38,535 bases of DNA from an uncultured Pseudomonadota bacterium (lineage in GTDB: Bacteria; Pseudomonadota; Gammaproteobacteria; Steroidobacterales; Steroidobacteraceae). Location: assembly GCA_903862885.1 (NCBI GenBank), contig CAIOZU010000037.1:1-38535 (forward strand), written 5' to 3'. Both the position numbers and the translations under genes were made by a program. Below, in pieces: positions 1 to 22,576 of the stretch. Below the pieces are notes generated by a model that was not told the DNA's origin, did not search any database, and worked only from the letters and a program-made list of their open reading frames with translations. Numbering within the stretch: position 1 is the first letter of the stretch; each line of letters starts with the position of its first letter.

Positions 1-45
1 TCATCGCGCCGGCACCGCCCGCAAACATTGAGACGCCTGGGGCAG

Positions 46-1221
46 CTATTTCTTTAAACCTAAGCAGAAGCGGCGCAGTCGAACCGCCGCTTCTCGCAAA
101 CGATCTTCGCTGATCGCAAAACAAATCCGCACAAAGCCTTGCGTCTCGCGACCAAACACAGAGCCTTCTAAAGTAGAGATACGCTCTTGACGGTACAGTG
201 CTGCCACAAATTCACGGGCGGATAGCCCAGAGTCACGCACATCCAACAGCATAAACATGCCTGCATCCGGCCACACCGGCGTCACACCAGCCAAGCCACT
301 GAGACCATCGAACATGATCTGCCGGCGAAGTTGGCAATATTCTCGCGCCGATGCTTCGCATTCAGGCGCCATGCCAATCGCGGTAATCGCTGCCTCCTGA
401 ATAAAGGCGGGCAAGCCATACAGCATGCTCTGAATCAGATTCTCTGCGTTTTGAATAAAATCAGTAGGCCCCACTACCCAACCCGATCGCCAACCCGTCA
501 TAGCATGCGTTTTAGAGAGGCTGCCGATGGTCAATACTTGATCAGGCAATGCGCGCGCAAGACTAGGCACATCGCCGCCCTCCGCCAGCCCCGCGTAGAC
601 CTCATCAGACACCACCCATAAACCATGGCGTTTAGCGATCTCAGCAATCCCATCAATGTCCTTCTGTGATAAAACGATCCCAGTGGGATTGTTGGGCGTC
701 GATAGAAAAATGGCGCGTGTCTTCGATGTGACCGCTGCCGCCATGGCCGCAAGATCCGGGTGAAAGTTATTCTCGGCAGGCGCCGGTACCGGCACTAAAC
801 GAGCACCCGATGCGCGAATCGTCGGATGATAGGTCGTATACATGGGATCGATGGCCAACACCTCATCCCCAAGCCCCGCCAAACACAGTGAGGCAATGAA
901 CAACCCATTTTGTGCGCCCCCCACCACCAAAGCGTTCTCAGCCGTCACCACCTGCCCGGTGCGACGGGTATGCGCATTGGCAATCGCCGCGCGAAGCCTG
1001 GGACGTCCGCCGCCCTCGGTGTAGTGCGTGTCTCCCGCCTGAATGCTTGAAATCGCAGTGGCAGAAATCGCCGGCGGCGTATCGAGATCAGGATCACCCG
1101 CACTTAAGACAATGACATCCTCGCCCGCCTCCGCCGCATGCCGAGCCTCCCAATGTAGCGCCCACGGGTCACCGCCCTCATCCCTAACCCACTCCACAAG
1201 CTGAGAAAAACGGCTGGTCAT
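46..1221 (-). CDS. AruH-like PLP-dependent aminotransferase (arginine:pyruvate transaminase family)
   Basis: A 391-residue fold-type I (class I/II) aminotransferase. The PLP-binding lysine is Lys237 in SLSKTHAMTGWRSGWVVGP; the cofactor ring contacts lie in TPNNPTG (about 175-181) and SDEVYAG (205-211). The motif around the lysine and the segment SMLYGLPAFIQEAA closely resemble Pseudomonas AruH, which moves the amino group of L-arginine to pyruvate to give 2-ketoarginine. The next gene upstream is an AruI-like decarboxylase whose stop overlaps this start as ATGA, the same pairing as aruH-aruI in the arginine transaminase pathway. Length is normal. Substrate is inferred: in this region, rich in betaine genes, a methylated arginine or trimethyllysine is also possible. 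Cytoplasmic. Confidence 0.85.
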   Translation of the reverse strand: MTSRFSQLVEWVRDEGGDPWALHWEARHAAEAGEDVIVLSAGDPDLDTPPAISATAISSIQAGDTHYTEGGGRPRLRAAIANAHTRRTGQVVTAENALVVGGAQNGLFIASLCLAGLGDEVLAIDPMYTTYHPTIRASGARLVPVPAPAENNFHPDLAAMAAAVTSKTRAIFLSTPNNPTGIVLSQKDIDGIAEIAKRHGLWVVSDEVYAGLAEGGDVPSLARALPDQVLTIGSLSKTHAMTGWRSGWVVGPTDFIQNAENLIQSMLYGLPAFIQEAAITAIGMAPECEASAREYCQLRRQIMFDGLSGLAGVTPVWPDAGMFMLLDVRDSGLSAREFVAALYRQERISTLEGSVFGRETQGFVRICFAISEDRLREAAVRLRRFCLGLKK

Positions 1222-2825
1222 TCGAATGCCTTTGCGTTGACTTCAATCATCATGACTTGGCGACGCGCACCAAACTCTGACAGTACGCGCTCTAAAGCAA
1301 CCAGACTATCGACGCATCGGTAGCCATATCCATACGCCTTTGCGATGGGCTCAAAATCCGGCGGCCTGACATCCACGCCTTCAGGCTCAATGTCGACTGC
1401 CAACATCGAGGCGCGAATCTCGCCATAGCCCTGGTTATTCCAGACCATGATGGCGGACCACGCATTCACATCCCGGGGCACTGCGAGCTCTCCTAAGGAG
1501 AACTGAATGCCGCCATCCCCTACCAAACACACCACCGGCCGATCAGGCGCCGCCAACCCTGCACCGGTCGACGCCGGCAGCGCATACCCCAAGGTGCCAA
1601 AGCCAGTGGAGCTATTAAACCAAGCACCGGGTCTCGGGGATTCGTAATAGAGATTGCCGGCATACACCGGCTGCGTCGAATCCCCCACCACAATGGCCTC
1701 TGGCAAGTGGGCACGAATGACATTTAGAAAAGCCACCTCACGTTGCATCGCGGGTGTGAGAGACAAAAGCGCCCCAGAGGCTGCGGCACGGGCAGCGGCC
1801 ACACCGCGATCCGGCATGGCCTCACCCAACTCTTCAGCCAAGATCGCCTCGAGCGTAGCGCCCGCATCGCCTAATAATTCTAAGTCAGGCAATACACTGC
1901 GACGCATCTGAACGGGATCGATATCAATACGCAGCAATCGCGCCGGTTTTGGAAAGTCACTCACCGCATACATGTCATAGTCGGTCGGACCCATCTCCGT
2001 ACCCACCGCCAACACCAGATCAGCGGATGCAATCAGTTCACGGATCGTCGCCAACGAAGGGCTCGCGGACACAGCGAGCGGATGCCCCACCGGCAGCACA
2101 CCGCGCGCATTGACGGTCATCACCACAGGCGCACCTAAGTGCTCCGCTAAACGGCGAACCGCCGCACTGGCGTGAACCGCGCCGCCACCCACCAACAGCA
2201 ACGGAGAGCGCGCAGCACGCAGCCACTCAACCGCCAACGCCACTTGATCGGCCGGTGCGCCATGGACAGCCACCCAGGCGGGAGACTCAACCATCGGCAG
2301 GCCACGCGCGGATTCAGTCAACACATCACGTGGGATCTCTACATAGGCGGGTCGTGGACGCTGGGCGCTCGCACCTGAGAACACTTCCGTGAGCACCGGA
2401 CCTAAGGCCTCTGGCGTGTCCACCCGGAAAGCCCGCCCACTGACCAGCGCACCAATCGCCTGCTGATTTGGCAACTCGTGCAAAAACCCACGACCGGTGC
2501 CAATTTCGTGTCGGCGGTTCTCACTGGAGATCACCACCAAGGGAATCGAGTCCCCATAGGCTTGCGCCATCGCACTCGCAATATTGGTCAAACCCGGTCC
2601 GGTGATGGTCAGACAGACCCCCGGACGACCTGATACGCGCGCATAACCATCGGCCATAAAACCAAGGCCCTGCTCATGGCGGCCGGCGACGTGACGAATG
2701 TGGGAAGCGGCTAAACCCCGATACAGCTCAAGATTGTGTACCCCCGGGATGCCAAAGACATGCCGAACGCCCAAAGTCTCTAAACTCTCGACTAGGTGGG
2801 CACCCACCGTCTTGATATCCGCCAT
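1218..2825 (-). CDS. AruI-like thiamine-diphosphate-dependent 2-keto acid decarboxylase
   Basis: A 535-residue protein of the acetolactate-synthase-like TPP superfamily: N-terminal pyrimidine-binding domain with the catalytic glutamate in GRHEQGLGFMADGYAR (Glu51), a central domain, and a C-terminal diphosphate-binding domain with the GDG...NN motif (GDGGIQFSLGEL to VWNNQGYGE). The reading frame is open for 61 codons further upstream, but the ATG at 2825 has a strong GGGGAG ribosome site six to seven bases before it, so I start there. AruI in Pseudomonas decarboxylates 2-ketoarginine to 4-guanidinobutyraldehyde. The partner aminotransferase follows with an ATGA overlap, so the two probably act in sequence. 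No aldehyde dehydrogenase to take the product is present in the window. Other 2-keto acids are possible substrates. Confidence 0.82.
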   Translation of the reverse strand: MADIKTVGAHLVESLETLGVRHVFGIPGVHNLELYRGLAASHIRHVAGRHEQGLGFMADGYARVSGRPGVCLTITGPGLTNIASAMAQAYGDSIPLVVISSENRRHEIGTGRGFLHELPNQQAIGALVSGRAFRVDTPEALGPVLTEVFSGASAQRPRPAYVEIPRDVLTESARGLPMVESPAWVAVHGAPADQVALAVEWLRAARSPLLLVGGGAVHASAAVRRLAEHLGAPVVMTVNARGVLPVGHPLAVSASPSLATIRELIASADLVLAVGTEMGPTDYDMYAVSDFPKPARLLRIDIDPVQMRRSVLPDLELLGDAGATLEAILAEELGEAMPDRGVAAARAAASGALLSLTPAMQREVAFLNVIRAHLPEAIVVGDSTQPVYAGNLYYESPRPGAWFNSSTGFGTLGYALPASTGAGLAAPDRPVVCLVGDGGIQFSLGELAVPRDVNAWSAIMVWNNQGYGEIRASMLAVDIEPEGVDVRPPDFEPIAKAYGYGYRCVDSLVALERVLSEFGARRQVMMIEVNAKAFE

Positions 2826-3044
2826 ACCCACTCCCCCTGTGAACGACCAGTATCCCATGCGTCCGGGCGCCTCGGATACCGTAACGCGCAGTAGCGTATT
2901 TATTGAAGCACCGATAATATAACTTCCTTGCGATGAAGGGTCAGCGATGCTCCCCAAAGCCATGATGGCCGGGGTGGTCAAAGCGGCTCCTATCGCCACG
3001 ACCGCCAACCTCTACTCACGCCGACAGGCAGACAACATTCCTCT

Positions 3045-3521
3045 ATGGCTGGCACCACTATTTACCGCTCCGACATCAAACCGGAGTGGATTGATTACAA
3101 CCAACACCTGCGCGATGCCTATTACGCGGTTGTGTTGAGCTTGGCGACGGATGCACTCATGGATCAAGTCGGTCTTGATGCCCACTATCGTGCCACGACG
3201 CACTGCACGCTCTACTCACTGGAAATGCATATCTATTGGCTTCACGAAGTCAAAGCCGGCGCCACCTTAGAAATCGATGCCCATGTGTTAGGCCTTGACA
3301 GCAAACGACTGCACTTAGGCATCGACATTCGAGTCATTGGTCAAGACGCGCCGGCTGCTACCGCCGAGATCATGCTGCTGCATGTTCGTCAGGGAGACAC
3401 GCCGGGTGTGGCGCCTTTCCCTGAGCCGGTGGTGGTGGCCCTCGAGGCGTTGCGTCAGACCTCAGATGGCAGCACGTGGCCTGGACCGCGCTCACGCGCA
3501 TTGACCCTGAGTAAGCGCTGA
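3045..3521 (+). CDS. Hot-dog acyl-CoA thioesterase (betainyl-CoA/carnitinyl-CoA thioesterase-like)
   Basis: A 158-residue 4-hydroxybenzoyl-CoA-thioesterase-type protein. The N-terminal signature PEWIDYNQHLRDAYY, with the family Asp/His region, is nearly the same as the thioesterase half of the carnitine dehydrogenase fusion at 21098-22576 (PEWIDYNGHMTDYRY). The two are therefore paralogues. Characterised relatives (CdhB and fused forms) hydrolyse betainyl-CoA to glycine betaine. Standing first in a run with a CoA ligase and a CaiD-like dehydratase, it could instead release carnitine from carnitinyl-CoA. Its TGA is directly followed by the GTG start of the ligase, so translation is probably coupled. 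There is no good ribosome site before the ATG at 3045; that start is chosen because it sits just before the domain. Confidence 0.8.
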   Translation: MAGTTIYRSDIKPEWIDYNQHLRDAYYAVVLSLATDALMDQVGLDAHYRATTHCTLYSLEMHIYWLHEVKAGATLEIDAHVLGLDSKRLHLGIDIRVIGQDAPAATAEIMLLHVRQGDTPGVAPFPEPVVVALEALRQTSDGSTWPGPRSRALTLSKR

Positions 3522-5567
3522 GTGAACGACGGGTTAAAACGCCTACTGAATCCGAAGACCATTGCACTGGTTGGCGGTGCATGGACCGATGCGGTAGCCA
3601 ACGCCAGCCGCCAAATCGGCTATCAAGGCACCGTCTGGCGGATTCATCCCACGCGCGTATCGGATGCGACCACGCATTACTACCGATCGGTGGATGAGTT
3701 GCCCTGCGCACCTGATGCGACTTTTCTCGCCGCACCTTGCGCAGATGTGCCGGCGATCGCCGCCTCTTTAGCCACCCGCGGAGCGGGTGGTTTCGTATGT
3801 TTTGCGGCGGGCTTTGATGAAACAGGCACAGAGGCCGGTCATGCACTGACCGCAGCACTCGTTGAAAGTGCCGGCGATCTACCCTTCACAGGACCGAACT
3901 GCTACGGCTTAGTCAACTTTTTTGACCGGGTGGCGCTGTGGCCTGATCAAGTAGTCGGCGGACCGGTTAAACGAGGGGTTGTTCTGATCACTCAAAGCGG
4001 AACGATTGGCTTGAGCTTGATGTACAACCACCGCTCGCTCCCCATTGGTTATGTCCTGACCGTTGGTAATCAAACCCGGCTTGCGATGGAAGATCTCATC
4101 GATGTACTGAGCGAAGACCCGCGTGTCAGCGCTTTTGGTTTATATGTCGAAGGTATTAAAGATGCCCAGCGCTTCGCCGCGGCGACCGCTAAGGCGCGCC
4201 GTCTCGGCAAGCCCATTGCATTAGTTAAATCCGGCCGCACAGAAACCGCCGCTCGCACCGCCGCCACGCACACCGGCGCGCTCGCGGGCGCCGATAGCGT
4301 GTTCGATGCGTTCTGTCGGGATGCAGGGATCGCACGCTGTGACACGCTGCCCACACTGATTGAAACGCTGAAGGTACTGCATGCCGGCGGTCCCTTAGCG
4401 GGCCGCAAGCTATTGGTCATGGGCGCATCGGGGGGCGACATGGCGATGACCGCTGATGTCTCGCGCGAACTATCCATCGACTTTCCGTCCATGACCCAAA
4501 CCACCGTATCGGCTTTAACTGAGGTGTTAGGCCCACGCGTCACCATCGCCAACCCCTTCGACTTTCATACCTATATTTGGTTTGATCAAGAGCGCTTACG
4601 TCGTTTGTTCGCGGAAGTGTTTCAGGCCGGTTACGATGCGGTTGCTTTTATGCTCGATTGCCCGCCACCCGATCAAACCGACACCGCCGCCTATGACATG
4701 CCGATCCGTGAGTTTGTGGCGGCAGCCACCCGCTCCCAGACGCGCGGCGCTATGCTCGCCTCTCTCCCTGAAACGTTGTATACCGAGATCAGAGCGCACT
4801 GCCTTGAACACGGCGTGGTGCCACTGCAAGGCCAACGGGAGGGTTTAGAAGCCCTGGCACTGGCCGCTGGCATCGGCGCGGCGTGGCATCAATCACCCCC
4901 GCCGGAACTGCTTAAGCCCACCCACACACCGACGGATGTCCGTTCCCTCGATGAGCACGCAGGCAAAGCCGCACTCGCCGCCTTTGGTGTGCCGGTGCCT
5001 CAGTCCTGTCGCGTCACTGCAATTGATGCGGCGTCAGCCGCCAACCGATTGGGATTCCCCGTGGTATTAAAAGCGGTCAGCGCGACGCTTGCCCACAAGT
5101 CAGAGGTCGGTGGCGTCATCTTAAATATCCACAGCGAAGCCGAGGCCGCTGCAGCCGCAAAAAAACTGGCGGCGTTGTCTAGTGAGATTTTGGTAGAGCA
5201 GATGATTGTCGATGGCGTCGCCGAGATCCTAGTGGGAATCACGGTGGACCCTCAATTCGGTCAGGTGTTGGTTCTAGGCAGCGGTGGCGTGATGACTGAG
5301 TATTTCAAAGACACCACCAGTCTGCTGCCGCCATTCACTGCACAAAGCATTGAACGTGCCCTGGGTCGTCTGCGCGTGGCGCGCCTACTGGCCGGCTTTC
5401 GCGGTAAGGGAGCGGGCGATGTACCCGCTCTCGTGCAGGCCATTCTTGCGGTCACCCGCTACGCACAGGCAAATCTGCAGCGACTTGCAGAACTCGATGT
5501 CAATCCGATGATTGTGAGACCCTTAGGTCAAGGCGTGGTCGCAGTCGACGCGCTCATTCGAATTTAA
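3522..5567 (+). CDS. ADP-forming acyl-CoA synthetase (acetyl-CoA synthetase/ACD family)
   Basis: A 681-residue NDP-forming acyl-CoA ligase with alpha and beta parts fused. Domain order: CoA-binding Rossmann domain (about 8-130), succinyl-CoA-ligase-like domains (about 145-440) with the phospho-accepting histidine His250 in ATHTGALAG, and an ATP-grasp domain (about 465-681) containing VVLKAVSATLAHKSEVGG. It makes an acyl-CoA from acid, ATP and CoA with release of ADP and phosphate. It starts at GTG immediately after the thioesterase stop and ends in TAATG before the CaiD-like gene. In classical carnitine clusters activation is done by CaiC (AMP-forming) and CaiB (CoA transferase); neither is here, so this enzyme is the likely activator of the trimethylammonio acid. 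The substrate is inferred from context. Confidence 0.85.
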   Translation: MNDGLKRLLNPKTIALVGGAWTDAVANASRQIGYQGTVWRIHPTRVSDATTHYYRSVDELPCAPDATFLAAPCADVPAIAASLATRGAGGFVCFAAGFDETGTEAGHALTAALVESAGDLPFTGPNCYGLVNFFDRVALWPDQVVGGPVKRGVVLITQSGTIGLSLMYNHRSLPIGYVLTVGNQTRLAMEDLIDVLSEDPRVSAFGLYVEGIKDAQRFAAATAKARRLGKPIALVKSGRTETAARTAATHTGALAGADSVFDAFCRDAGIARCDTLPTLIETLKVLHAGGPLAGRKLLVMGASGGDMAMTADVSRELSIDFPSMTQTTVSALTEVLGPRVTIANPFDFHTYIWFDQERLRRLFAEVFQAGYDAVAFMLDCPPPDQTDTAAYDMPIREFVAAATRSQTRGAMLASLPETLYTEIRAHCLEHGVVPLQGQREGLEALALAAGIGAAWHQSPPPELLKPTHTPTDVRSLDEHAGKAALAAFGVPVPQSCRVTAIDAASAANRLGFPVVLKAVSATLAHKSEVGGVILNIHSEAEAAAAAKKLAALSSEILVEQMIVDGVAEILVGITVDPQFGQVLVLGSGGVMTEYFKDTTSLLPPFTAQSIERALGRLRVARLLAGFRGKGAGDVPALVQAILAVTRYAQANLQRLAELDVNPMIVRPLGQGVVAVDALIRI

Positions 5568-5581
5568 TGGGAGTAGTGGTC

Positions 5582-6358
5582 ATGACAGATGGAATTCGTG
5601 TTGTTAAAAATGGTGCCATCTTAGAAGTCACCATCGATCGCCCCAAGGCCAATGCGATTGATCTGAAAGCCAGCCTACGGCTCAATGACATCTGGACCGA
5701 GTTTAAAAAAGATCCTGCGTTACGCGTGGGGATTTTAACCGGCGCTGGTGAGAAGTTTTTCTGCCCCGGTTGGGATCTTAAAGCGGCTGCGGGTGGCGAG
5801 GCCACTAACTCCGAGTGGGGTGTAGGAGGCTTTGGTGGTTTAAATCACCCACGCAATCTCGATAAACCCATTATTTCGGCGGTCAATGGCATCGCCTATG
5901 GCGGCGGTTTTGAGATGGTCTTAGGCACTGACCTGATTGTGATGGAAGAACACGCACGCTTTGCGCTACCCGAAATTAAAGTGGGCATCCTCCCGGACGC
6001 TGCCACCATTAAATTACGTCGCCGCATTCCGTATCACATTGCCGTGGAATTTTTAATGCTCGGTCGCTCAATGGATGCGGCGGAAGCGAAGCAGTGGGGC
6101 TTGGCTAACTGGGTGGTGCCACAAGGGCAGGCCATGACCAAGGCGCGCGAAGTCGCACAAATGATCGCTGAAGGCCCTCCGCTTTTATTCCCAGCGATCA
6201 AGCAATTACTGCACCACAGTGAAATGGTTGCAGAGAATCCAGCATTTGAACTACATGATTCGCTGCATGCGGTGATGAGGGTCGCGCAGTCAGAGGACAT
6301 GCTCGAAGGTGCTACGGCTTTTGCAGAAAAAAGAAAACCCGTATGGAAAGGTCGCTAG
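5582..6358 (+). CDS. caiD: Carnitinyl-CoA dehydratase-like enoyl-CoA hydratase
   Basis: A 258-residue crotonase-family protein. It resembles E. coli CaiD (261 residues) along its whole length: IDRPKANAID, GWDLKAAAGGEA, NLDKPIISAVNGIAYGGGFE and the C-terminal AFAEKRKPVWKGR. The oxyanion-hole segment GGGFE and the second glutamate region FALPEIKVG are kept, so it should be active. CaiD interconverts crotonobetainyl-CoA and L-carnitinyl-CoA. The ATG at 5582 is preferred over an in-frame ATG at 5567, which overlaps the ligase stop, because GGAG lies eight bases before it. Together with the acyl-CoA dehydrogenase at 19238-20401 it would convert gamma-butyrobetainyl-CoA to carnitinyl-CoA. A different betaine acyl-CoA as substrate cannot be excluded. 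Confidence 0.85.
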   Translation: MTDGIRVVKNGAILEVTIDRPKANAIDLKASLRLNDIWTEFKKDPALRVGILTGAGEKFFCPGWDLKAAAGGEATNSEWGVGGFGGLNHPRNLDKPIISAVNGIAYGGGFEMVLGTDLIVMEEHARFALPEIKVGILPDAATIKLRRRIPYHIAVEFLMLGRSMDAAEAKQWGLANWVVPQGQAMTKAREVAQMIAEGPPLLFPAIKQLLHHSEMVAENPAFELHDSLHAVMRVAQSEDMLEGATAFAEKRKPVWKGR

Positions 6359-6359
6359 G

Positions 6360-7139
6360 GTGTTTGGCCAGTTCAAGCACGCTATTTTAAGACTCCCAGG
6401 CCATCGCTTTGCCGATGGCTTAACCACCTCATCGGAGGGGGCACCACAACGGGAGGTCGCACTCGCGCAACACGCCGCCTATACGCGCGCCTTACAGCAC
6501 TTAGGGTTAACCATTGAGGTACTGCCAGCGGATGAGGCCCATCCCGATGGCACCTTTGTCGAAGACACGGCCATCGTCACCCCCCATGGAGCCATCATCA
6601 CCCGCCCCGGCGCTGCGTCCCGAGCCGGCGAAACCGCTGCGATTGAGAATGCACTGAAGCCCTACTATCCAAGCCCTTCGCGCATCAGCGCGCCGGGCAC
6701 CGTAGATGGTGGCGATATCTGTGAAACGGATTCGACCGTGCTCATTGGCATATCAGCACGCACCAATGAAGCCGGCGCCCAGGCACTGGCAGGACTCCTG
6801 ACTGAGTGGGGCCTGCAGTCACGAATCATTGATGTGCGCGCGTGCAACCAACTGCTTCATTTTAAAACGGGCATCTCAGCCTTAGGCGATAACCGACTGG
6901 CCGTCACCCCAGGCCTTCCCGCTTTTGATGGCTTAAAGGGCTTTGAACAAGTGGTCTTAGATCCGCGTGAAGCCTACGCGGCTAACTGTATTCGGGTGAA
7001 CGATCGCATCGTGATCCCCAGCGGCTGCCCGCGCTTTGAGGACCAACTAAGCCGCTTAGGCTACAGCCCCTTGGCACTCGATATGTCAGAATTCAAAAAA
7101 ATGGATGGTGGCTTGAGCTGTCTGTCACTGCGATTCTAG
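6360..7139 (+). CDS. N(G),N(G)-dimethylarginine dimethylaminohydrolase (DDAH)
   Basis: A 259-residue amidinotransferase-superfamily (pentein) enzyme, close in length and sequence to Pseudomonas aeruginosa DDAH (FKHAILRLPGHRFADGLT at the start, KKMDGGLSCLSLRF at the end). The catalytic triad is visible: Cys254 in GLSCLSL, His167 in LLHFKTG, and Glu68-Asp69 in TFVEDT. Further shared blocks are IITRPGA, ISARTNEAGAQ and YAANCIRVN. The reaction is hydrolysis of asymmetric dimethylarginine or monomethylarginine to citrulline and di- or methylamine. The GTG at 6360 is one base after the CaiD stop and aligns with the family start; an upstream in-frame ATG at 6309 would overlap caiD and add an unrelated tail. 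Its position points to methylated amino acids as substrates of the region. Confidence 0.88.
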   Translation: MFGQFKHAILRLPGHRFADGLTTSSEGAPQREVALAQHAAYTRALQHLGLTIEVLPADEAHPDGTFVEDTAIVTPHGAIITRPGAASRAGETAAIENALKPYYPSPSRISAPGTVDGGDICETDSTVLIGISARTNEAGAQALAGLLTEWGLQSRIIDVRACNQLLHFKTGISALGDNRLAVTPGLPAFDGLKGFEQVVLDPREAYAANCIRVNDRIVIPSGCPRFEDQLSRLGYSPLALDMSEFKKMDGGLSCLSLRF

Positions 7140-7185
7140 ACGAGGCCCTACACTGAATGCGGCACGGTTACTGAGAGAGATTGGC

Positions 7186-8688
7186 ATGCACACTGACCCA
7201 AAGCCCACGGCCATCACCCTAAACCATGCCCTGAGCTGGCGCGAAGTCCATGCGGTGGCGACAGGTGCCTCCCTGCAACTGTCGCCGGATACCGCCACGC
7301 GCATCCATGCCGCGCGCGCTTTGGTGGACAGCATCTCTGCGAAGGGTATTCGCGCCTACGGTGTCAATACGGGCGTTGGCGCACTGTGTGACGTGATGAT
7401 TGATATCGCCGAACAAGCGCACCTCTCCAGAAATCTGATCATGAGTCATGCCGTGGGCGTGGGCAGCCCCCTCAGTCCCATCGAAACGCGCGCCATCATG
7501 GCCGCACAAGTCAATAATTTTTGCCACGGCTACTCCGGTGTCAGGCTCGCACTCGTTGAGCAACTACTGACGCTACTCAACGCCCATTGCACCCCGGTGG
7601 TGCCCTCGCAGGGCTCGGTGGGCTATCTCTCACACATGGCGCACATCGCGCTGGTGGTCATCGGCGAAGGTCAGGTGCATGCCACACCCTCATCAGGCAA
7701 TGCGTCCTTGGGTACTTCGCACATCAAGCCGTTGGTATTAGCTGCCAAAGAAGGCTTAAGCATCCTCAATGGCACTCCCTGTGCGACCGGCTTGGCAGCC
7801 ATGGTGTTGGCACGCGCTGAGCGGCTGCTCGCCTGGGCGGATGATGTGAGCGCCATGAGTTTCGAGGCGCTTCGCGGACAACCCGCCGCCTTTGATGAGG
7901 ATATTTTGGCGTTACGACAATCGCCCGCCATCAACCAAGTGGGTGCGCGTCTGCGCGCGTTGTTGTCAGGCAGCGCCATCTTGGCGGCGAGCGCAGGTGC
8001 GCACACTCAGGCCTCTTTAAGTCTGCGGGCTATTCCACACGTCCATGGCGCGGCTCGTGAGGTATGGACGCACACCACCGTCCTCGTCGATCAAGAACTC
8101 AAGGCAGTCACCGATAATCCTATCGTCACGGGCACCATGGAGGCGCCCGAAGCCCATTCCGAAGCGCACGCCATTGGCGCCGCCTTAGGCTTAGCGATGG
8201 ACAGCCTTGGTGTCGCCGTCGCGTCAGTGGCCGCCATGTCCGAGCGACGCACTGACCGGCTGGTGAACCCCTTAGTCAGTGGGCTACCCGCTTTTCTGTC
8301 GGCCGTACCCGGGGTAGGAAGCGGTTTTATGATTGCGCAGTACACCGCCGCGTCCTTGGTGGCCGACAATCGTCGTCTGGCGGCGCCGGCGAGTCTCGAT
8401 GGGGGTATCACCTCCGCGCTGCAGGAGGATCATTTATGCCACGCCACCCCCGCCGCTCTCAAAGCGCTCAAGATTTTGGATAACGCGGAGCATATTGTGG
8501 CGATTGAGCTCTTGGCCGCCACCCAGGCCTATGACTTATTAATGGGGGCCCCGGCCCGCGCACCGGCAACCGAGCGGCTGCATCAACGGGTCCGACAACT
8601 GGCCCCGACCTACACGGACGATCGCCCCCTGGCCGTAGATATCCTGCGAGCACGCGATCTGATCAGCAGCCAATGGCCAAATGCCTAG
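7186..8688 (+). CDS. Histidine ammonia-lyase homologue lacking the MIO triad (possible ergothionase-like trimethylammonia lyase)
   Basis: A 500-residue protein of the aromatic amino acid lyase family, collinear with HutH. Preserved HutH active-site positions: Tyr58 (AYGVNTG), His88 (RNLIMSHA), Asn195 (SILNG), Gln275, Arg281 and Glu414 (LQEDH). The cofactor-forming Ala-Ser-Gly is missing: HutH reads GSVGASGDLAPLAH, here residues 143-153 read GSVGYLSHMAH, an in-frame loss of exactly three residues. The MIO electrophile therefore cannot form. The position of HutH Tyr280 is Leu278. From memory, ergothionase, which eliminates trimethylamine from ergothioneine without MIO, belongs to this fold; elimination from an already quaternised nitrogen does not need MIO. 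Surrounding betaine genes favour such a role. The ATG at 7186 follows GAGAGATTGGC. Confidence 0.75.
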   Translation: MHTDPKPTAITLNHALSWREVHAVATGASLQLSPDTATRIHAARALVDSISAKGIRAYGVNTGVGALCDVMIDIAEQAHLSRNLIMSHAVGVGSPLSPIETRAIMAAQVNNFCHGYSGVRLALVEQLLTLLNAHCTPVVPSQGSVGYLSHMAHIALVVIGEGQVHATPSSGNASLGTSHIKPLVLAAKEGLSILNGTPCATGLAAMVLARAERLLAWADDVSAMSFEALRGQPAAFDEDILALRQSPAINQVGARLRALLSGSAILAASAGAHTQASLSLRAIPHVHGAAREVWTHTTVLVDQELKAVTDNPIVTGTMEAPEAHSEAHAIGAALGLAMDSLGVAVASVAAMSERRTDRLVNPLVSGLPAFLSAVPGVGSGFMIAQYTAASLVADNRRLAAPASLDGGITSALQEDHLCHATPAALKALKILDNAEHIVAIELLAATQAYDLLMGAPARAPATERLHQRVRQLAPTYTDDRPLAVDILRARDLISSQWPNA

Positions 8689-8742
8689 GTTTTGATCAAA
8701 AACCGCCGCGCGGTCCTTGAATCCGCGTGTCGATTGCATAAA

Positions 8743-8761
8743 TGCCGATGGCCTATCGGCA
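8743..8761. other. Hairpin downstream of the HAL-like lyase
   Basis: Seven-base arms TGCCGAT and ATCGGCA around the loop GGCCT. It lies 55 bases after the lyase stop and about 140 bases before the LysR start. There is no T-run after it on either strand, so it is at best a weak terminator or an mRNA-stabilising structure. Confidence 0.35.
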
Positions 8762-8834
8762 AAAGGCATTGGCTCTGATTGCCACTTTAGGCCACCCTTG
8801 CGGCCGACCCAAAGCACCGAAAAGGCGTCTGGGA

Positions 8835-8849
8835 ACCGTACAATACGGT
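8835..8849. promoter_or_regulatory. Perfect dyad ACCGTA-CAA-TACGGT, possible operator
   Basis: Six-base perfect inverted repeats separated by three bases, 51 bases upstream of the LysR start codon in a 212-base gap. The size and position fit an operator for the LysR regulator itself or for another regulator of the lyase/MttB genes. No second copy was noticed in the window. Binding is inferred only. Confidence 0.4.
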
Positions 8850-8900
8850 CCTCCACCGAACATAAAGACAGATCGGTGGGCTTGGGTCCTAGGAGAGTGC

Positions 8901-9881
8901 ATGGATCGCGTAAAAATTGACCGTCGCTGGCTCCCCTTAAACGCGCTGCGCGCGTTTGAGGCCGTGGCTAAGCACGGCAGTTTCACCGGTGCCGCCCAAG
9001 CACTTATGATTTCGCAAAGCGCACTGTCACGGCATGTGATTTCCCTCGAAAAACTCATTGGCGTACAGCTGTTCGAACGACGCCCCCAATCACTGGTCCT
9101 GACCGCAGCGGGTAATCATCTGTTGCCCGCCATCACCAAATCCTTTGATCGGCTGGAATATGCCATCGACGAAGTGCGTCAAGCGAGCGCGCCTGCGCTT
9201 CGTACGCTGCGCGTGCAGATGCCACCGACCTTCGCCGTGCATCTGGCGGTGCCCATCTTGAGAGATTTCCGTGCCGCCAATCAAGAGGTCAATATTGATA
9301 TGGTGAGCCCTTACGGAGTGGGCCAGCCACCGAATGATGTCGACGTGGCGGTGGTGTATGCACAGCCCACCATCACCGACATGGTGTCGGACTTATTGTG
9401 GCCTGAGCGCCTGAGCATCCTATGCCACCCCGATGTCGCCGCACGCCACGCAGGCAAAGACTTAGCGAGCTTTATCAATGACAATGAGCTCATCCATGTG
9501 CGCATCGCCGACCTACCAAGGCACTACCGCTGGGCACAGCTCATCAAACAGGAACGGCCCAGTCAGGTGAATGTCGATCGCGGCCTGGTATTTGATACCT
9601 CTCTGCTGGCCGCGCAATATGCGTTGTCTGGCGAAGGACTGGCGCTGGTGGACATCAACTTATTTAAAGAGGACTTAGCGGCCAAGCGCTTAGTCCAGCC
9701 GTTTAACGTCATCTTGGATGAAGGATTCGGCTATTACCTCATCACCCACCCGGAAGGCTTAAGCGACACCGCCATTGCTTTATTCCGGTCGTGGCTCATT
9801 GATCACTTTGGCACCCGTCCATCGAGCAACGCGGGTGCAGGAACACGCGGTACTGACGCCGCAGGAGCATACCATTCATGA
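8901..9881 (+). CDS. LysR-family transcriptional regulator (GcvA-like)
   Basis: A 326-residue LysR regulator. The N-terminal winged helix-turn-helix is clear (LPLNALRAFEAVAKHGSF, then AAQALMISQSALSRHV and FERRPQSLVLTAAG), followed by the effector-binding domain with FDTSLLAAQYALSGEGLALV. The frame is open 53 codons further upstream, but the ATG at 8901 has AGGAG five bases before it and begins just ahead of the DNA-binding domain, as usual for GcvA-type members. Unlike most LysR genes it is on the same strand as its presumed targets, between the lyase and MttB. Its last four bases overlap the MttB start (ATGA), so the two are co-translated. A perfect dyad at 8835-8849 is a candidate binding site. 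The effector is unknown. Confidence 0.9.
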   Translation: MDRVKIDRRWLPLNALRAFEAVAKHGSFTGAAQALMISQSALSRHVISLEKLIGVQLFERRPQSLVLTAAGNHLLPAITKSFDRLEYAIDEVRQASAPALRTLRVQMPPTFAVHLAVPILRDFRAANQEVNIDMVSPYGVGQPPNDVDVAVVYAQPTITDMVSDLLWPERLSILCHPDVAARHAGKDLASFINDNELIHVRIADLPRHYRWAQLIKQERPSQVNVDRGLVFDTSLLAAQYALSGEGLALVDINLFKEDLAAKRLVQPFNVILDEGFGYYLITHPEGLSDTAIALFRSWLIDHFGTRPSSNAGAGTRGTDAAGAYHS

Positions 9882-11455
9882 CTGAGCACACCGATCGAGC
9901 CGACCGACGCACCGGGCGTCGTCGACCCGGCGCCCAAAGCACCCAAGAGCCGATTCCTGATCGGTCATTGAGCTACCGTCATCTCACCAATCCCTTTGAG
10001 CCACTCAAAGTGTTCTCAGACGACGAGATCGCCTCGATCCACGAAGCGGCTCTGCTCATTCTTGAAAATCAAGGTATGCGAGTGCTATCCGAACGCGGAC
10101 GCAAGACCTATGCGGCCGGGGGCGCAATGGTGGATGAAGCCACCTTTATGACGCGAATCGATCGTGGCCTCGTCGCGCAAGCACTGGCAACTGCGCCACG
10201 CGACATCACTCTACATGCCAAAGATCCTGCCCGGCACATGCCCATGTCCGGTAAGCACGTCGTCTTCGCACCCACCTCAGGTCCACCCAACATCATGGAT
10301 CTGAAGCGTGGTCGACGCGCCGGCACCTTTGAAGATTTTTCTAACATGATGAAGCTGTGCCAGAGCTTCGAAGTCATGCATGTATTAGGCGGCGGCGTCG
10401 AGCCACAGGACATCCCGATCCATATCCGCCATCTCGACACCACCCGCGCGATGCTGATGCTCACCGATAAGATCCCGCTGGTCTATGCGCGTGGCACAGG
10501 TCAAATTAATGACAACTTTGAGTTGATCCGGATCGCTTATGGGCTCAGCAAAGAAGAGTTCGAGGCGCGCCCACACACGATTGCGATTATTAATACCAAC
10601 TCACCCTTGCAGCTAGATATTCCGATGGCGGAGGGCATCATAGATTTTGCGGCGGCCGGACAGCCGCTGATCATCACGCCCTTCACACTGGCGGGTGCCA
10701 TGGCACCTGTCACTATTGCAGGAGCCCTGACTTTGGCCCACGCCGAAGCCCTCGCAGGACTGGTGCTGGCACAAATCGTGCGCCCCGGCTCACCGATTGT
10801 GTACGGTAGCTTCACCTCGAACGTCGACATGAAATCGGGTTCCCCCGCCTTTGGCACGCCGGAGTATGTGAAATCCTCCTTCGGCGCAGGCCAACTGGCT
10901 CGACACATTGGTCTCCCGTGGCGCTCATCAAATGCCACTGCATCCAACAGCCCCGATGCACAATCCGCCTATGAATCGCAGATGAGCTTGTGGGGCGCAC
11001 TGATGGGCGGCTGCAACTTCATGCTGCACGCCGCCGGGTGGTTAGAAAGTGGACTGACCACTTCTTATGAAAAATTTATTCTGGACATCGAAATGCTGCA
11101 GATGTTCGCTGAGACCTTTCAGCCCGTGCTCGCGACCCCGGCGGAGCTTGCGCTGGATGCCATTGCGGAAGCCGGTGTCAGCGTCTCACAAGCGTTGCCA
11201 GCGCACTTTTTTGGCTGCGCGCATACACAAGCACGTTACCGCACCGCTTTTTACACCCCCCTAGTGTCTGACTGGCGGAACTTTGGGGCCTGGACCGATG
11301 CGGGCAGTCACACCGCAACCGAGCGCGCCCATACCATCTGGCAAGACACACTGGCAAAATATCAAGCACCTGAGCGTGATCCGGCGATCGTCGAAGAGCT
11401 CGATGCGTTCGTCGCCAAGCGCAAGGCAGCCGGTGGCGCGCCGCCGGTGAGCTAA
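9878..11455 (+). CDS. MttB-superfamily (trimethylamine methyltransferase-like) protein, non-pyrrolysine
   Basis: A 525-residue member of the MttB family (TIM-barrel methyltransferases acting on quaternary or tertiary amines). Conserved-looking blocks are PNIMDLKRGRR, TNSPLQLD, ITPFTLAGAMAPVT and YGSFTSNVDMKSGSPAFG. The frame has no internal amber codon, so it is a non-pyrrolysine member; characterised ones demethylate glycine betaine (MtgB), proline betaine (MtpB) or carnitine (MtcB), passing the methyl to a corrinoid protein. No corrinoid-binding protein (about 210 residues with a DxHxxG motif) is present in the window. The first 30 residues are charged and low in complexity and may not be part of the fold. 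The start overlaps the LysR stop as ATGA. The next gene is a dimethylglycine-dehydrogenase-like flavoprotein, which suggests glycine betaine as substrate. Confidence 0.85.
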   Translation: MTEHTDRADRRTGRRRPGAQSTQEPIPDRSLSYRHLTNPFEPLKVFSDDEIASIHEAALLILENQGMRVLSERGRKTYAAGGAMVDEATFMTRIDRGLVAQALATAPRDITLHAKDPARHMPMSGKHVVFAPTSGPPNIMDLKRGRRAGTFEDFSNMMKLCQSFEVMHVLGGGVEPQDIPIHIRHLDTTRAMLMLTDKIPLVYARGTGQINDNFELIRIAYGLSKEEFEARPHTIAIINTNSPLQLDIPMAEGIIDFAAAGQPLIITPFTLAGAMAPVTIAGALTLAHAEALAGLVLAQIVRPGSPIVYGSFTSNVDMKSGSPAFGTPEYVKSSFGAGQLARHIGLPWRSSNATASNSPDAQSAYESQMSLWGALMGGCNFMLHAAGWLESGLTTSYEKFILDIEMLQMFAETFQPVLATPAELALDAIAEAGVSVSQALPAHFFGCAHTQARYRTAFYTPLVSDWRNFGAWTDAGSHTATERAHTIWQDTLAKYQAPERDPAIVEELDAFVAKRKAAGGAPPVS

Positions 11456-11522: not shown

Positions 11523-13934
11523 ATGCGTACGCATGTGCAAGCAGTGGTGATCGGTGGTGGCGTGGTGGGCGCGAGCGTGCTGTACCACCTGACAAAGGCG
11601 GGATGGAAAGATGTGCTACTCATTGAGCGCGCTGAGCTCACCTCAGGCTCAACCTGGCACGCGGCCGGCGGTATGCACACCGTCAATGGCGACCCCAATG
11701 TCGCCAAACTTCAGCAGTACACCATCAAGCTGTATCAAGAGATTGAGGCGATTTCAGGGCAGTCCTGCGGCGTGCACATCACCGGTGGCGTCATGTTGGC
11801 GGGCACCCCTGAGCGCGTCGATTGGCTCAAGATGGCCGTGGCGCGTGGCCGCTACTTAGGCATGGATCTGGAACTGATGTCAGTGCCAGAAGCCAAGAAA
11901 TTATTTCCGCTGCTAGAGGAAAAACACTTCCTAGGTGCGATCTATGATCCCATTGAAGGCCACGTAGATCCGTATGGCGTCACCCACGCCTACGCAAAAT
12001 CGGCGCAGATTGGTGGGGCAGAGATCGTAAGACAAACCCGTGTAGTCGACACCCAGCAGCGAGCGGATGGGACGTGGGATGTGATCACCGATCAAGGCAA
12101 CGTACACGCCGATCATGTGGTCAACGCCGGTGGTCTATGGGCACGTGAAGTTGGGCGAATGGTGGGCCTTGAGCTGCCCATTTTGGCGATGGAACATCAG
12201 TATCTCATCACCGAAGACATCCCCGAGTTCAAAGGCCAAAAAGAGCAGCTGCATTGCATCGATTTCGAGGGCGAGATCTATATGCGCCAAGAGCGCGGCG
12301 GCATGCTGATGGGTACATACGAGCGTGCCGGTGTGCCTTGGTCACCAAAAACCACCCCGTGGGACTTTGGCCAGGATCTCTTACCCAACGATCTAGATCG
12401 CATTGCACCGAGTCTTGAGGTCGGTTTTAAGCACTTTCCACGACTCGAAAGTGCTGGCATCAAAAAGATCGTTAATGGGCCGTTCACCTTTGCACCTGAT
12501 GGCAATCCATTGATCGGGCCTGTGCGTGGACTGAAGAATTACTGGGTGGCGTGTGGCGTGATGGCAGGCTTCAGTCAGGGCGGTGGCGTTGGCCTTGCGT
12601 TGTCACAGTGGATGGTCAATGGCGATCCGGGTGCTGATATTTGGGGCATGGATGTGGCCCGCTACGGCCATTGGGCGACGCTTGCGTATACCAATGCCAA
12701 AGTGCGCGAGAACTATTCGCGCCGCTTCAGTATTCGCTTCCCGAATGAAGAATTGACGGCTGCAAGGCCGCTGCGTACCACCCCGATTTATGATCGCTTG
12801 ATTGCTGAGAACGCGGTATTCGGTGATTACTGCGGTCTTGAGCATCCGTTATGGTTTGCGCCGAAAGGCACGCCCGCCGTTGAAGAATTCACGTGGGGCC
12901 GATCCAATGCGCACCCGGTGGTCGCTGAAGAATGCCGTGCGGTGCGTGAACAGGCGGGTCTCTTAGAGATCTCTAACTACGGAAAATTCGAAGTCACCGG
13001 CCCCAAAGCGGCTGAGTGGCTTGGTCACGTCATGGCCAATCGGGTGCCCGCCATCGGTCGCATGGTGCTGACACCGATGCTCAACGAGGCGGGTCGCTTG
13101 ATTGGTGATTTCACCATTGCGCGCCTCAGTGAGGAGCGTTTCTTCGTGGTGGGCACCTATGCGGCGGAGACCTTCTACATGCGATGGTTCGAACGCAGCC
13201 TGCCGCCTAGTGGCGTCACCGTGCGACCCTGCGCGATGGAGTATGTCGGTTTATCGGTCGCCGGTCCCCGAGCACGAGAGATTCTGCAGCCTCTAGTGAG
13301 CGAGGATCTATCCACTGCCGCCTTCCCCTTCATGTCATTTAAAGCAATGGATGTCGGCATGGTACCCACCCTCATGGGTCGGGTGTCTTTCACCGGTGAC
13401 ATCGGCTATGAGCTGTGGGTTACCACCGACTATCAGCGCACGCTATTTGACTTGCTGATGAAGGCCGGTGCTAGCCATGGCCTGCGCTTGATTGGAGGCC
13501 GCACACTCAACTCATTGCGCCTAGAAAAAGGCTTCGGCACGTGGGCACGGGAATTTAGACCCATCTATGGGCCGCTAGAAGCCGGTCTCAGTCGCTTTGT
13601 GGACTTCAAGAAAGAGCACTTCATTGGCCGCGAAGCCGCACTCGCTGAAAAAGCCAGCGGCGGTGAAAGGCGTTTAATTCAGCTAGACGTGGCGGCGGTG
13701 GATGCGGATGCGATCAGTGATGAACCGATTTTCCATGACGGCAAAGTCGTCGGTTGGGTGACCTCGGGTGGCTATGGCCACTCGGTTAAAAAATCCATCG
13801 CCTTAGGCTATGTCGATAAGGCAGTGGCTGAAGCAACTACCGGCTTTGAAGTGGAACTCATCGGCCACCGTCGTGCCGCCACTCGCTTGGTCGAATCACC
13901 CTTTGATCCGAAGGGCCTTAAGATGCGCGCCTAG
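11523..13934 (+). CDS. Dimethylglycine/sarcosine dehydrogenase-like flavoprotein with GcvT domain
   Basis: An 803-residue two-part enzyme. Residues 1-400 form a DAO-type FAD domain with VVIGGGVVGASVLYHL (8-23) and SGSTWHAAGGM, whose His46 matches the histidine that carries covalent FAD in dimethylglycine and sarcosine dehydrogenases. Residues 430-800 form a GcvT-like aminomethyltransferase domain that binds tetrahydrofolate, with GYELWVTTDY and LRLIGGRTLNSLRLEKGFG. Such enzymes oxidatively remove an N-methyl group and hand it to tetrahydrofolate. Length matches the family (about 800-860). Placed directly after MttB, it likely demethylates the product of that step, for example dimethylglycine to sarcosine. 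The exact substrate among dimethylglycine, sarcosine and related amines cannot be told from sequence. Confidence 0.88.
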   Translation: MRTHVQAVVIGGGVVGASVLYHLTKAGWKDVLLIERAELTSGSTWHAAGGMHTVNGDPNVAKLQQYTIKLYQEIEAISGQSCGVHITGGVMLAGTPERVDWLKMAVARGRYLGMDLELMSVPEAKKLFPLLEEKHFLGAIYDPIEGHVDPYGVTHAYAKSAQIGGAEIVRQTRVVDTQQRADGTWDVITDQGNVHADHVVNAGGLWAREVGRMVGLELPILAMEHQYLITEDIPEFKGQKEQLHCIDFEGEIYMRQERGGMLMGTYERAGVPWSPKTTPWDFGQDLLPNDLDRIAPSLEVGFKHFPRLESAGIKKIVNGPFTFAPDGNPLIGPVRGLKNYWVACGVMAGFSQGGGVGLALSQWMVNGDPGADIWGMDVARYGHWATLAYTNAKVRENYSRRFSIRFPNEELTAARPLRTTPIYDRLIAENAVFGDYCGLEHPLWFAPKGTPAVEEFTWGRSNAHPVVAEECRAVREQAGLLEISNYGKFEVTGPKAAEWLGHVMANRVPAIGRMVLTPMLNEAGRLIGDFTIARLSEERFFVVGTYAAETFYMRWFERSLPPSGVTVRPCAMEYVGLSVAGPRAREILQPLVSEDLSTAAFPFMSFKAMDVGMVPTLMGRVSFTGDIGYELWVTTDYQRTLFDLLMKAGASHGLRLIGGRTLNSLRLEKGFGTWAREFRPIYGPLEAGLSRFVDFKKEHFIGREAALAEKASGGERRLIQLDVAAVDADAISDEPIFHDGKVVGWVTSGGYGHSVKKSIALGYVDKAVAEATTGFEVELIGHRRAATRLVESPFDPKGLKMRA

Positions 13935-21097: not shown

Positions 21098-22576
21098 CTA
21101 CCGAGCCGACATGCCGCGACCGGCCTCTGCGGGACGCTCAAGCTTCGCATGAGCGGTGGCGATGGCTTGAAGCTTGGAGAGTACCGCCGTAGGCATCGGT
21201 GACGCTTTCCCCGCTTTGGAATCCACGTGCACAAAAAAGTGCTCGGCCGTGGCCACCAACTTCTGATCAGACACGCGATGCATGCGATGGAATAGCCAGA
21301 ATTTCTTGGCATCTGCGTGCAGCACCTGCGTGGTCACATAGACCGCATCGGCCTGACGCACCTCCGCATGATGGCGCACATGGGACTCCACGGTGTACGG
21401 TGCATGGCCGGCGGCCCGATAAGCCTCGTCGATCCCGACCCGCCGCAGGAGTGCATCCACCGCATCCCCAAAGACGTGCAAGTACCGATAGTCGGTCATG
21501 TGTCCGTTGTAATCGATCCATTCGGGTCGCACGGCCGTTTCATGCAACTTCAGTGGCTGTGAGAGATCCTCAGCCACTGATTGAGTACGCGCCGCTGCAT
21601 CGTTATACAGCCGCTCCTCCACCGCTTTCAGCGTGGCACCGGCGCCTAAATTAAACTGCTTAAGTACTTGTTGGATCGCCACCAAGTAGTCATCGCGCAA
21701 GCGCTCTAGCTCACGAATCGAGCGCCCACCTGCCTGCTCTGAGGTGCCTTCAACCATTCGGTCAATCAATGCCTCGGTCAGTTCCGGCGCTTCCAATTTG
21801 GTCCACGGCCATTTCAGGCACGGACCAAACTGATGCAGCATGTGGCGCATACCCGGCTCACCACCCGCTAAGTGATAGATCTGGTTAGTGCCCATGCCCG
21901 CCCAACGCAGTCCAGGACCATAAATAATGGACTCATCGAGTTCGCCCGTGGTGGCGATGCCATCATTGACTAGGTGCAAAATCTCACGCCACAACGCTTC
22001 TTGCAGACGATCGGTCAAATGCCCGGGTATTTCCTTGCGCACTTTAAGTGCATGCATACCGATAAAGGTATAAAAAACCTTAGCCGCTTCGATGCTCGCA
22101 TCATCGGTTAGCCGGCCTTTCACCAGCTCAACCAATGGCAACAAGTACACCGGATTAAAGGGATGCCCCACGATCAGTCGCTCAGGCGCCACCATATCGC
22201 GCTGTAGATCCGACGGCATAATCCCCGAGGTGCTAGACGCAATCACCACATCAGGCGGCGCATGCCGGCTGACTTGCGCCAAGATGCGCTGCTTGAGTTC
22301 GATATTTTCAGGGATATTTTCCTGAATGAAATCCGCCTGGGCGGCCATGGCGTTGAGATCCGTCGTAAAGCTCAATCGACCCTTGGGTGGTAACGGCGCC
22401 TGCGTCAGTCGGGCAAGCGCGGGTTCCGCATTGGCGATCGCGCCGCGGATCCACTCCTCCATTTCAGGCTTTACATCGGCAGCGATCACATCAATCCCAT
22501 AGTGCAGGGCGCGCGCTGCCCAACCCCCACCAATCACACCAGTCCCTAAGAGTCCGAGCGTTTTAACGTGTCGCAT
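21098..22576 (-). CDS. L-carnitine 3-dehydrogenase fused to a betainyl-CoA thioesterase
   Basis: A 492-residue fusion. Residues 1-320 are a 3-hydroxyacyl-CoA-dehydrogenase-type domain: NAD site GLLGTGVIGGGWAARAL (8-24), ASSTSG (113-118) and the catalytic histidine region VGHPFNPVYLLPLVELV (His138). This is the L-carnitine dehydrogenase family, which oxidises carnitine to 3-dehydrocarnitine with NAD. Residues 343-480 are a hot-dog thioesterase (RPEWIDYNGHMTDYRYLH) like the separate one at 3045-3521. Such fusions are known in rhizobia and relatives; the partner activity hydrolyses betainyl-CoA to glycine betaine. The enzyme between the two steps (3-dehydrocarnitine:acetyl-CoA trimethylamine transferase, a BKACE/DUF849 protein) is not in the window. 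First gene of its operon. Confidence 0.9.
   Translation of the reverse strand: MRHVKTLGLLGTGVIGGGWAARALHYGIDVIAADVKPEMEEWIRGAIANAEPALARLTQAPLPPKGRLSFTTDLNAMAAQADFIQENIPENIELKQRILAQVSRHAPPDVVIASSTSGIMPSDLQRDMVAPERLIVGHPFNPVYLLPLVELVKGRLTDDASIEAAKVFYTFIGMHALKVRKEIPGHLTDRLQEALWREILHLVNDGIATTGELDESIIYGPGLRWAGMGTNQIYHLAGGEPGMRHMLHQFGPCLKWPWTKLEAPELTEALIDRMVEGTSEQAGGRSIRELERLRDDYLVAIQQVLKQFNLGAGATLKAVEERLYNDAAARTQSVAEDLSQPLKLHETAVRPEWIDYNGHMTDYRYLHVFGDAVDALLRRVGIDEAYRAAGHAPYTVESHVRHHAEVRQADAVYVTTQVLHADAKKFWLFHRMHRVSDQKLVATAEHFFVHVDSKAGKASPMPTAVLSKLQAIATAHAKLERPAEAGRGMSAR

Follow-up and report, generated by a model that had tools for sequence, protein, structure and literature searches.

A histidine ammonia-lyase homologue without its MIO-forming residues in a Steroidobacteraceae contig, proposed to be a hercynine trimethylamine-lyase

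Ammonia is a poor leaving group, hence the 4-methylideneimidazole-5-one (MIO) of the histidine ammonia-lyases (HALs), a textbook example of a cofactor made from an enzyme's own chain; in the bacterial enzyme HutH, Tyr53 is held to be the base that acts at the β carbon. A trimethylammonium nitrogen cannot add to MIO, and it leaves readily once the β proton has been removed. HAL homologues that are free of MIO and release trimethylamine are already known in the form of ergothionase. According to excerpts of PMC13405746, ergothionase is without the MIO cofactor (a point for which a 2019 structure paper is cited), the Treponema denticola enzyme (6s7j, 6s7q) takes an α-trimethylammonium derivative of histidine as substrate, and a further ergothionase is known from Burkholderia sp. 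HME13 (accession BAM63550). Here we describe HALx, a protein encoded in a 38,535-nucleotide stretch of DNA (the window) from an uncultured Pseudomonadota bacterium of the Steroidobacteraceae (assembly GCA_903862885.1, contig CAIOZU010000037.1, positions 1-38,535 of the forward strand). HALx has lost three residues at the site where MIO would form, and we propose, with a probability of about 0.68, that it is a MIO-free trimethylamine-lyase converting hercynine (N-α-trimethyl-histidine, histidine betaine) to urocanate.

The MIO site and the active site of HALx

The gene and the positions on which the comparison turns are:
7186-8688, + strand: HALx, MIO-free HAL-family lyase, proposed hercynine trimethylamine-lyase; open frame of 500 amino acids, PF00221
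7612-7644, + strand: site where MIO would form, G143-S-V-G-Y147-L-S-H150-M-A-H153, three residues shorter than in HutH
8017-8019, + strand: Leu278, at the position of HutH Tyr280; Leu in 92/94 and Met in 2/94 proteins with the same type of site (GYL type, below)
8170-8172, + strand: Ala329, at the position of HutH Phe329; Ala in 91/94 GYL-type proteins, with Pro, Cys and Gly in the other three

HALx matches the aromatic amino acid lyase superfamily profile PF00221 from end to end (480.8 bits, cut-off 27.3, profile positions 1-466 of 466). Its top NCBIfam models are those for histidine ammonia-lyase, and it scores under the cut-offs of both (453.5 bits against 524; TIGR01225, 444.8 against 539.15). 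The AlphaFold2 model, computed from 20 aligned proteins, has a mean predicted local distance difference test score (pLDDT) of 85.8 and a predicted template modelling (TM) score of 0.89. A Foldseek search with this model placed HAL structures at ranks 1-10 among the solved structures, and T. denticola ergothionase 6s7j at rank 16 with a TM score of 0.87 and 26% identity.

Where HutH has GSVGASGDLAPLAH, HALx has GSVGYLSHMAH (residues 143-153), a net loss of three residues in the alignment. The Ala-Ser-Gly triad of HutH pairs with the gap in the alignments, and no shifted Ala-Ser-Gly is found in HALx, which bears out the clean in-frame loss of the MIO-forming residues claimed in an earlier reading made from the sequence only. 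Which residues went the sequence cannot say, as it fits both a loss of ASG with a change of D to Y and a loss of SGD with a change of A to Y. The same site, which we call the GYL type, is common to all 80 relatives read, these being the best 80 of 591 confirmed homologues from the genome collection. A survey of 200 genomes of the window's own family yielded 15 homologues above 500 bits, the window's own counted, with the next scores at about 300, and the site is of the GYL type in all 15. The three-residue loss is confirmed, and its presence in all of these relatives and own-family copies places it beyond chance. Among 120 aligned homologues, 94 have a GYL-type site, 24 have ASGD and 2 have another MIO-free site; Tyr147 is found in 94/94 GYL-type proteins by selection, the type having been picked by the letters GYL. 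We infer that the HALx lineage arose from an ancestor that resembled HutH and still had MIO.

The rest of the active site was compared with Pseudomonas putida HutH (1b8f), using residue numbers that we take to be the accepted ones and that agree with the offsets in the HALx-1b8f alignment. Y58, H88, N195, Q275, R281 and E414 of HALx fall at Y53, H83, N195, Q277, R283 and E414 of HutH, presumably its imidazole, carboxylate and base residues; all six are present in HALx, and Met382 of HutH is kept as well. L278 falls at Y280. The sequence-only reading had listed the same six residues as kept and Tyr280 as changed to Leu; to this the alignment adds a change from Phe329 to Ala (phmmer places the stretch around Ala329 two residues off against 1b8f, and Phe still meets Ala). 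Within the 94 GYL-type proteins Tyr53, Gln277, Arg283 and Glu414 are invariant, while His83, Asn195 and Met382 are each kept in 93, the exceptions including Gly195 in a Klebsiella plasmid lyase (L089) and Gln382 in an Agrobacterium lyase (L087). Every one of the 24 MIO-bearing homologues has Tyr280 and Phe329, and the changes at these two positions track the site, occurring in 94/94 GYL-type and 0/24 ASGD-type proteins. With Tyr280 and Phe329 replaced and the other pocket residues kept, the pocket is therefore likely to be opened on its amino side and unchanged on the side that faces imidazole and carboxylate.

To judge by its sequence the HALx gene is intact and not decayed, because the site is conserved, the active-site residues are kept and Ka/Ks is 0.063 by the simple Nei-Gojobori method against the sister-genome orthologue (87% identical), a rough ratio given the high Ks of 1.27. 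The earlier view that the gene is not simply dead is thereby supported, if indirectly.

Comparison with ergothionase and the sulphur pathways

T. denticola ergothionase resembles HALx in its HAL fold, in the absence of MIO, in a Leu at the Tyr280 position and in keeping the equivalents of Tyr53, His83, Gln277, Arg283 and Glu414. The two differ in how MIO was lost: the site of 6s7j, SSIGEGD, is one residue shorter than that of HutH, with Glu in place of Ala-Ser, whereas HALx is shorter by three. They also differ around the substrate, the T. denticola enzyme having Ser at Asn195 and Gly at Met382 with Phe329 kept, and HALx having Asn195, Met382 and Ala329. Identity between them is 26-27%.

A maximum-likelihood tree was computed from 50 rows with the MIO-site columns left out; the Burkholderia sp. 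HME13 ergothionase is not among the rows. The 29 proteins of the window's type form one branch with support 100/100, and eight forms shorter by one residue fall to the same side of a branch with support 100/99. In the approximately unbiased (AU) test, a tree constrained to group the window's type with 6s7j, L142 and L094 was rejected (p = 0.0001). Neither one origin of all MIO-free forms (p = 0.327) nor one origin of the three-residue loss (p = 0.332) was rejected, so that MIO may have been lost once or several times. The tree as found sets a Klebsiella and a Priestia plasmid lyase among MIO-bearing lyases with moderate support.

The distribution of thiourocanate hydratase also bears on ergothioneine as a substrate. 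This enzyme scores over its cut-off in 11 of 79 genomes with HALx (2/50 and 9/29) and was found neither in the window's genome nor in the sister genome, both of which are among the 29; in a twelfth genome (G217) a fragment scoring 861 bits lies at the beginning of a contig, again close to a HAL homologue. In none of the 11 genomes does the hydratase gene adjoin HALx; each time, a different HAL homologue is encoded 1.4-4.5 kb from the hydratase gene. Like HALx, these neighbouring lyases (beside NF058530 hydratases in Caballeronia, Burkholderia and Rhizobium) belong to PF00221, lack MIO and carry Leu at the position of Tyr280. They differ from it in their site, GE-AD in five and GC-AD in six, and in having Ser at Asn195 and Gly at Met382 in 11/11; their alignment is at 23-29% identity (23-28% to HALx itself), so that single positions in the GC-AD group are less sure. 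The GE-AD lyases beside thiourocanate hydratase in Burkholderiaceae are probably the better candidate relatives of the Burkholderia sp. HME13 ergothionase.

Since ergothionase, too, lacks MIO, HALx was at first thought likely to be an ergothionase, splitting ergothioneine into trimethylamine and thiourocanate. The shared fold, the missing MIO and the shared Leu speak for this, and the HME13 enzyme known from the excerpts of PMC13405746 lies outside the sequence comparison. The idea was dropped after the T. denticola sequence, the tree and the AU result. With a different solution at the MIO site, low identity, a rejected joint grouping and a hydratase that keeps company with another lyase, we regard it as decidedly unlikely. 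The sequence-only reading had named hercynine and ergothioneine together and had pointed to an alignment with the T. denticola enzyme; hercynine fits the data, ergothioneine does not, and the alignment and the tree set the two proteins apart in their MIO loss and their clade.

A third kind of neighbour is seen in Agrobacterium. The L087 lyase has the same GYL site as HALx, belongs to the same clade and is 55% identical to it; it differs in Gln at Met382, the only one of the 94, and in a neighbour suited to a substrate with sulphur at C2, an adjoining S-methyl-thiourocanate hydratase (NF058531, 976.5 bits, cut-off 880). No report characterising this lyase was met with in the literature searched. 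Residue 382 thus seems to track what sits on ring C2, because Gly382 occurs beside thiourocanate hydratase and Gln382 beside the S-methyl type; HALx has the HutH residue.

Several further observations concern these lyases. The L087 region (1-10491, on an Agrobacterium tumefaciens plasmid) is an apparent S-methyl-ergothioneine cluster, which also encodes a molybdenum S/N-oxide reductase family protein and an OpuAC-type ATP-binding cassette (ABC) transporter. L142, one of the Caballeronia lyases beside thiourocanate hydratase, also has an S-Me-THD-like neighbour. L158-L163, from Rhizobium and related genomes, are GC-AD lyases 4.3-4.5 kb from thiourocanate hydratase; at 26-29% identity to T. denticola ergothionase, they form a divergent, probable ergothionase group. 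The Klebsiella lyase (L089 4998-6530, on a Klebsiella pneumoniae plasmid) is MIO-free with GSVG-YL and Gly at Asn195; the cluster around it is hut-like and includes hutU, hutC and hutD along with genes for formimidoylglutamate deiminase and an ABC transporter. Similar matches occur on other Klebsiella plasmids among the matches listed. The Priestia lyase (L090 4989-6527, on a Priestia megaterium plasmid) is MIO-free with GSLG-YLNHQAH and Cys at Phe329, and lies near hutI; the tree places it beside the MIO-bearing HutH of Cetobacterium and Acetoanaerobium, and it may be an independent excision.

Gene context of the relatives and the proposed reaction

The loci of the 80 relatives, many of them from the genus Paraburkholderia and hence not 80 independent cases, tie the GYL-type lyase to histidine utilisation. 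An ABC-transporter ATPase is encoded directly upstream of the lyase gene in 68/80, and at least one hut gene lies within the locus in 71/80. Eight Burkholderiaceae loci, seven from Caballeronia and one from Burkholderia sp. Leaf177, share a gene order in which the transporter and then HALx precede hutU, hutD, hutI and hutF, and no hutH match occurs in the 21 kb examined at each. The proteins of one of these, L034, were scored: its hydratase is an ordinary HutU (944.9 bits, cut-off 375) and falls under both thiourocanate models (664.4 and 683.8 bits, cut-offs 930 and 880), HutI is over its cut-off, HutF is over that of TIGR02022, and N-formylglutamate amidohydrolase comes next. L034 HutU shares 97.7-99.8% identity with its counterparts in the other seven loci. 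In the annotated record of Aureimonas L148 the MIO-free lyase is the sole lyase of an operon hutC-hutF-lyase-hutI-hutG-hutU-hutD, whose hydratase is 72% identical to L034 HutU and 49% identical to the thiourocanate types. A HALx-type lyase thus stands at the place of HutH beside ordinary HutU in eight Burkholderiaceae loci and one Aureimonas operon, and not in the window locus. HutH itself is over cut-off in 73/77 of the relatives' genomes (7/8, 45/47 and 21/22), with partial matches in the other four; the genomes of three of the 80 loci lie outside this count. HALx is therefore an additional lyase, and its product would enter HutU, which would make HALx a source of urocanate that is not needed for histidine.

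These contexts also bear on two other explanations. HALx could be a redundant HutH, a histidine ammonia-lyase that works without MIO, and its location in hut clusters and the name hutH in public records fit that idea. It nevertheless appears extremely unlikely, given the HutH found besides it in nearly all of the genomes and the replacement of Tyr280 and Phe329 throughout the GYL type; furthermore, a serine mutant of a related phenylalanine ammonia-lyase that lacks MIO is practically inactive on its amino acid, according to PMC3903478. Alternatively, the loss of the family-defining cofactor could point to a relative that does not catalyse and might instead sense, for example, histidine or urocanate. 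This we consider very unlikely, given that Tyr53, Gln277, Arg283 and Glu414 are invariant across the GYL type and that a complete hut operon in Aureimonas has such a protein as its one lyase.

From these computed features we infer the substrate, products, catalytic roles and pocket geometry of the following scheme. HALx is predicted to carry out a 1,2-elimination on hercynine, yielding urocanate and trimethylamine, and the urocanate would then pass into the ordinary histidine pathway via HutU. The imidazole and carboxylate sites of HutH would be retained as His88, Asn195, Met382, Glu414, Arg281 and Gln275, with Tyr58 predicted to be the base at the β carbon by analogy to HutH Tyr53. No electrophile would be needed, the quaternary nitrogen being already a good leaving group. 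In place of the MIO loop, Tyr280 and Phe329, a shortened loop with Tyr147, together with Leu278 and Ala329, would leave room for the N(CH3)3+ group, and the remodelled pocket may provide a cation-π contact to it. We favour hercynine because the HutH residues are kept, the amino pocket is remodelled, the relatives lie in a hut context and ergothionase provides a MIO-free precedent. The same residues, pocket, context and precedent lend indirect support to the suggestion in the sequence-only reading that a lyase without the electrophile would release a better leaving group than ammonia, such as trimethylamine.

A number of observations weigh against the assignment to hercynine. In the HALx model, the loop 403-417, which contains Glu414, has pLDDT below 50, and one own-family copy (L107) has Thr at His83. 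The run of genes around HALx in the window holds no hut gene, and a hut gene was found beside HALx in 0/14 other own-family loci. Eight of the 80 relatives' loci have neither a hut gene nor an ABC transporter; six are gammaproteobacterial metagenome-assembled genomes, some on short contigs, and two are from Pseudomonas. The ABC transporter beside HALx could carry histidine. The hydratase adjoining the Agrobacterium L087 lyase indicates that substrates can differ within the type, as do the Rhizobium plasmid loci L147 and L149, in which the GYL-type lyase lies outside hut clusters. Finally, the Burkholderia sp. HME13 ergothionase, absent from the comparison, may itself be of the GYL type. The context argument is borrowed from relatives that are 55-66% identical to HALx; the residues at the substrate site are, on alignment, the same.

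At L147 and L149 (9058-16755) the GYL-type lyase adjoins a fatty acid desaturase, cytochrome c or aldehyde dehydrogenase, and a 2Fe-2S protein and a molybdopterin-binding oxidase are also present, which suggests another possible substrate or fate.

A broader picture, which we regard as evenly poised, would be that Pseudomonadota associated with soil and plants have a previously undescribed branch of histidine utilisation. Its origin would lie in a copy of a HutH-like lyase from which MIO was excised to the residue and in which the amino pocket was opened; the resulting hercynine trimethylamine-lyase, in most cases accompanied by a transporter of its own and in many by a HutC regulator, would supply the hut enzymes with urocanate. 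This excision may have occurred up to three times (in the GYL family, the Klebsiella plasmid lyase and the Priestia plasmid lyase), apart from the loss in ergothionase, and residue 382 would act as a specificity code, with Met for hercynine, Gly for ergothioneine and Gln for S-methyl-ergothioneine. A family that removed MIO to the residue and kept the rest of the active site would show that MIO is not required where the leaving group is quaternary from the start. Should hercynine prove to be the substrate, soil bacteria would have a way of bringing a fungal and actinobacterial betaine back into central metabolism, and trimethylamine would gain an additional source. Among the matches listed from the open-licence literature, none describes a hercynine lyase, the GYL clade, the three-residue excision or its place in hut clusters, although subscription papers may do so. 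In annotation, the type is mistaken for HutH: all eight annotated plasmid records of GYL type that were opened name the gene hutH or histidine ammonia-lyase.

The window neighbourhood and its genome

Genes on one strand of the window form a run in which HALx comes fifth; its other members are:
3045-3521, + strand: 4HBT_2 thioesterase (Pfam PF13279), first gene of the run
3522-5567, + strand: ADP-forming acyl-CoA synthetase family (Pfam PF13607, PF13549)
5567-6358, + strand: crotonase, nearest to crotonobetainyl-CoA hydratase, under cut-off (NF002936, 289.7 bits, cut-off 500)
6309-7139, + strand: dimethylargininase-like (DDAH), under cut-off (NF045658, 246 bits, cut-off 450); true start probably inside the frame
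8742-9881, + strand: LysR-type regulator (Pfam HTH_1, LysR_substrate)
9878-11455, + strand: MttB-family methyltransferase, no inner stop (PF06253, 639.7 bits; TIGR02369, 307.1 bits, cut-off 525)
11523-13934, + strand: FAD oxidoreductase fused to a GcvT-like domain, dimethylglycine-dehydrogenase-like (Pfam DAO, FAO_M, GCV_T, GCV_T_C)

The run is collinear in one genome of the same genus (L125), the sole other genome to have it among the loci compared, and because of this narrow distribution the window's neighbourhood was set aside as evidence on the substrate. The sequence-only reading had leaned on the surrounding betaine genes, and that part of its argument is weak. The neighbourhood does, however, enter into one further explanation, that HALx, in the window's lineage if not throughout, removes trimethylamine from a different α-betaine, either S-methyl-ergothioneine or the betaine of another amino acid. 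In the latter case the acyl-CoA synthetase and crotonase of the run could process the unsaturated acid that results, with a thioesterase also adjoining, and one relative, L087, lies beside S-methyl-thiourocanate hydratase. Against this, HALx retains His83, Asn195, Met382 and Glu414, which we take to be the imidazole-site residues of HutH, the S-methyl relative has Gln382, and the window's genome is without a second urocanase; on balance we judge another betaine rather unlikely.

For hercynine, enzymes that would handle the predicted product are encoded elsewhere in the window's genome, where HutU, HutF, HutI and HutG are all over their cut-offs and the single urocanase found is the ordinary HutU. 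The genome also encodes a HutH-type lyase with ASGD (L001). In the own-family loci HALx otherwise lies among unrelated genes: an ABC transporter as in the relatives adjoins it in 1/14 (L135), and a transporter resembling the major facilitator superfamily (MFS) adjoins it in 3/14, as judged by eye. These three, L136 10743-13599, L137 7536-8897 and L138 10572-11900, combine HALx with an MFS-like transporter of one look, and L136 has a further HAL homologue of VA-D type next to it. B12-binding proteins, sought in the window's genome as partners of the MttB-like protein, number two, neither inside the window.

Three more PF00221 proteins without ASG are encoded in the same genome:
G000:C53:5577-7010, - strand: L003, site GTVG-EG-D, signal-peptide-like start (by eye), Glu at Tyr280
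G000:C36:36959-38449, - strand: L004, site GAIG-EA-D, signal-peptide-like start (by eye), Glu at Tyr280
G000:C46:21141-22493, - strand: L005, site TSYG-TA-D

Elsewhere in the window, positions 46-3008 on the - strand, divergent from the run, encode an aminotransferase and a 5-guanidino-2-oxopentanoate decarboxylase (677.7 bits, cut-off 500), which together with the DDAH-like gene at 6309-7139 on the + strand suggest a possible use of methylated arginine. A carnitine 3-dehydrogenase (21098-22576, - strand, 612.1 bits, cut-off 592) lies near an acyl-CoA dehydrogenase and an MFS transporter, and the thioesterase at 3045-3521 matches the C-terminal part of the carnitine 3-dehydrogenase model.

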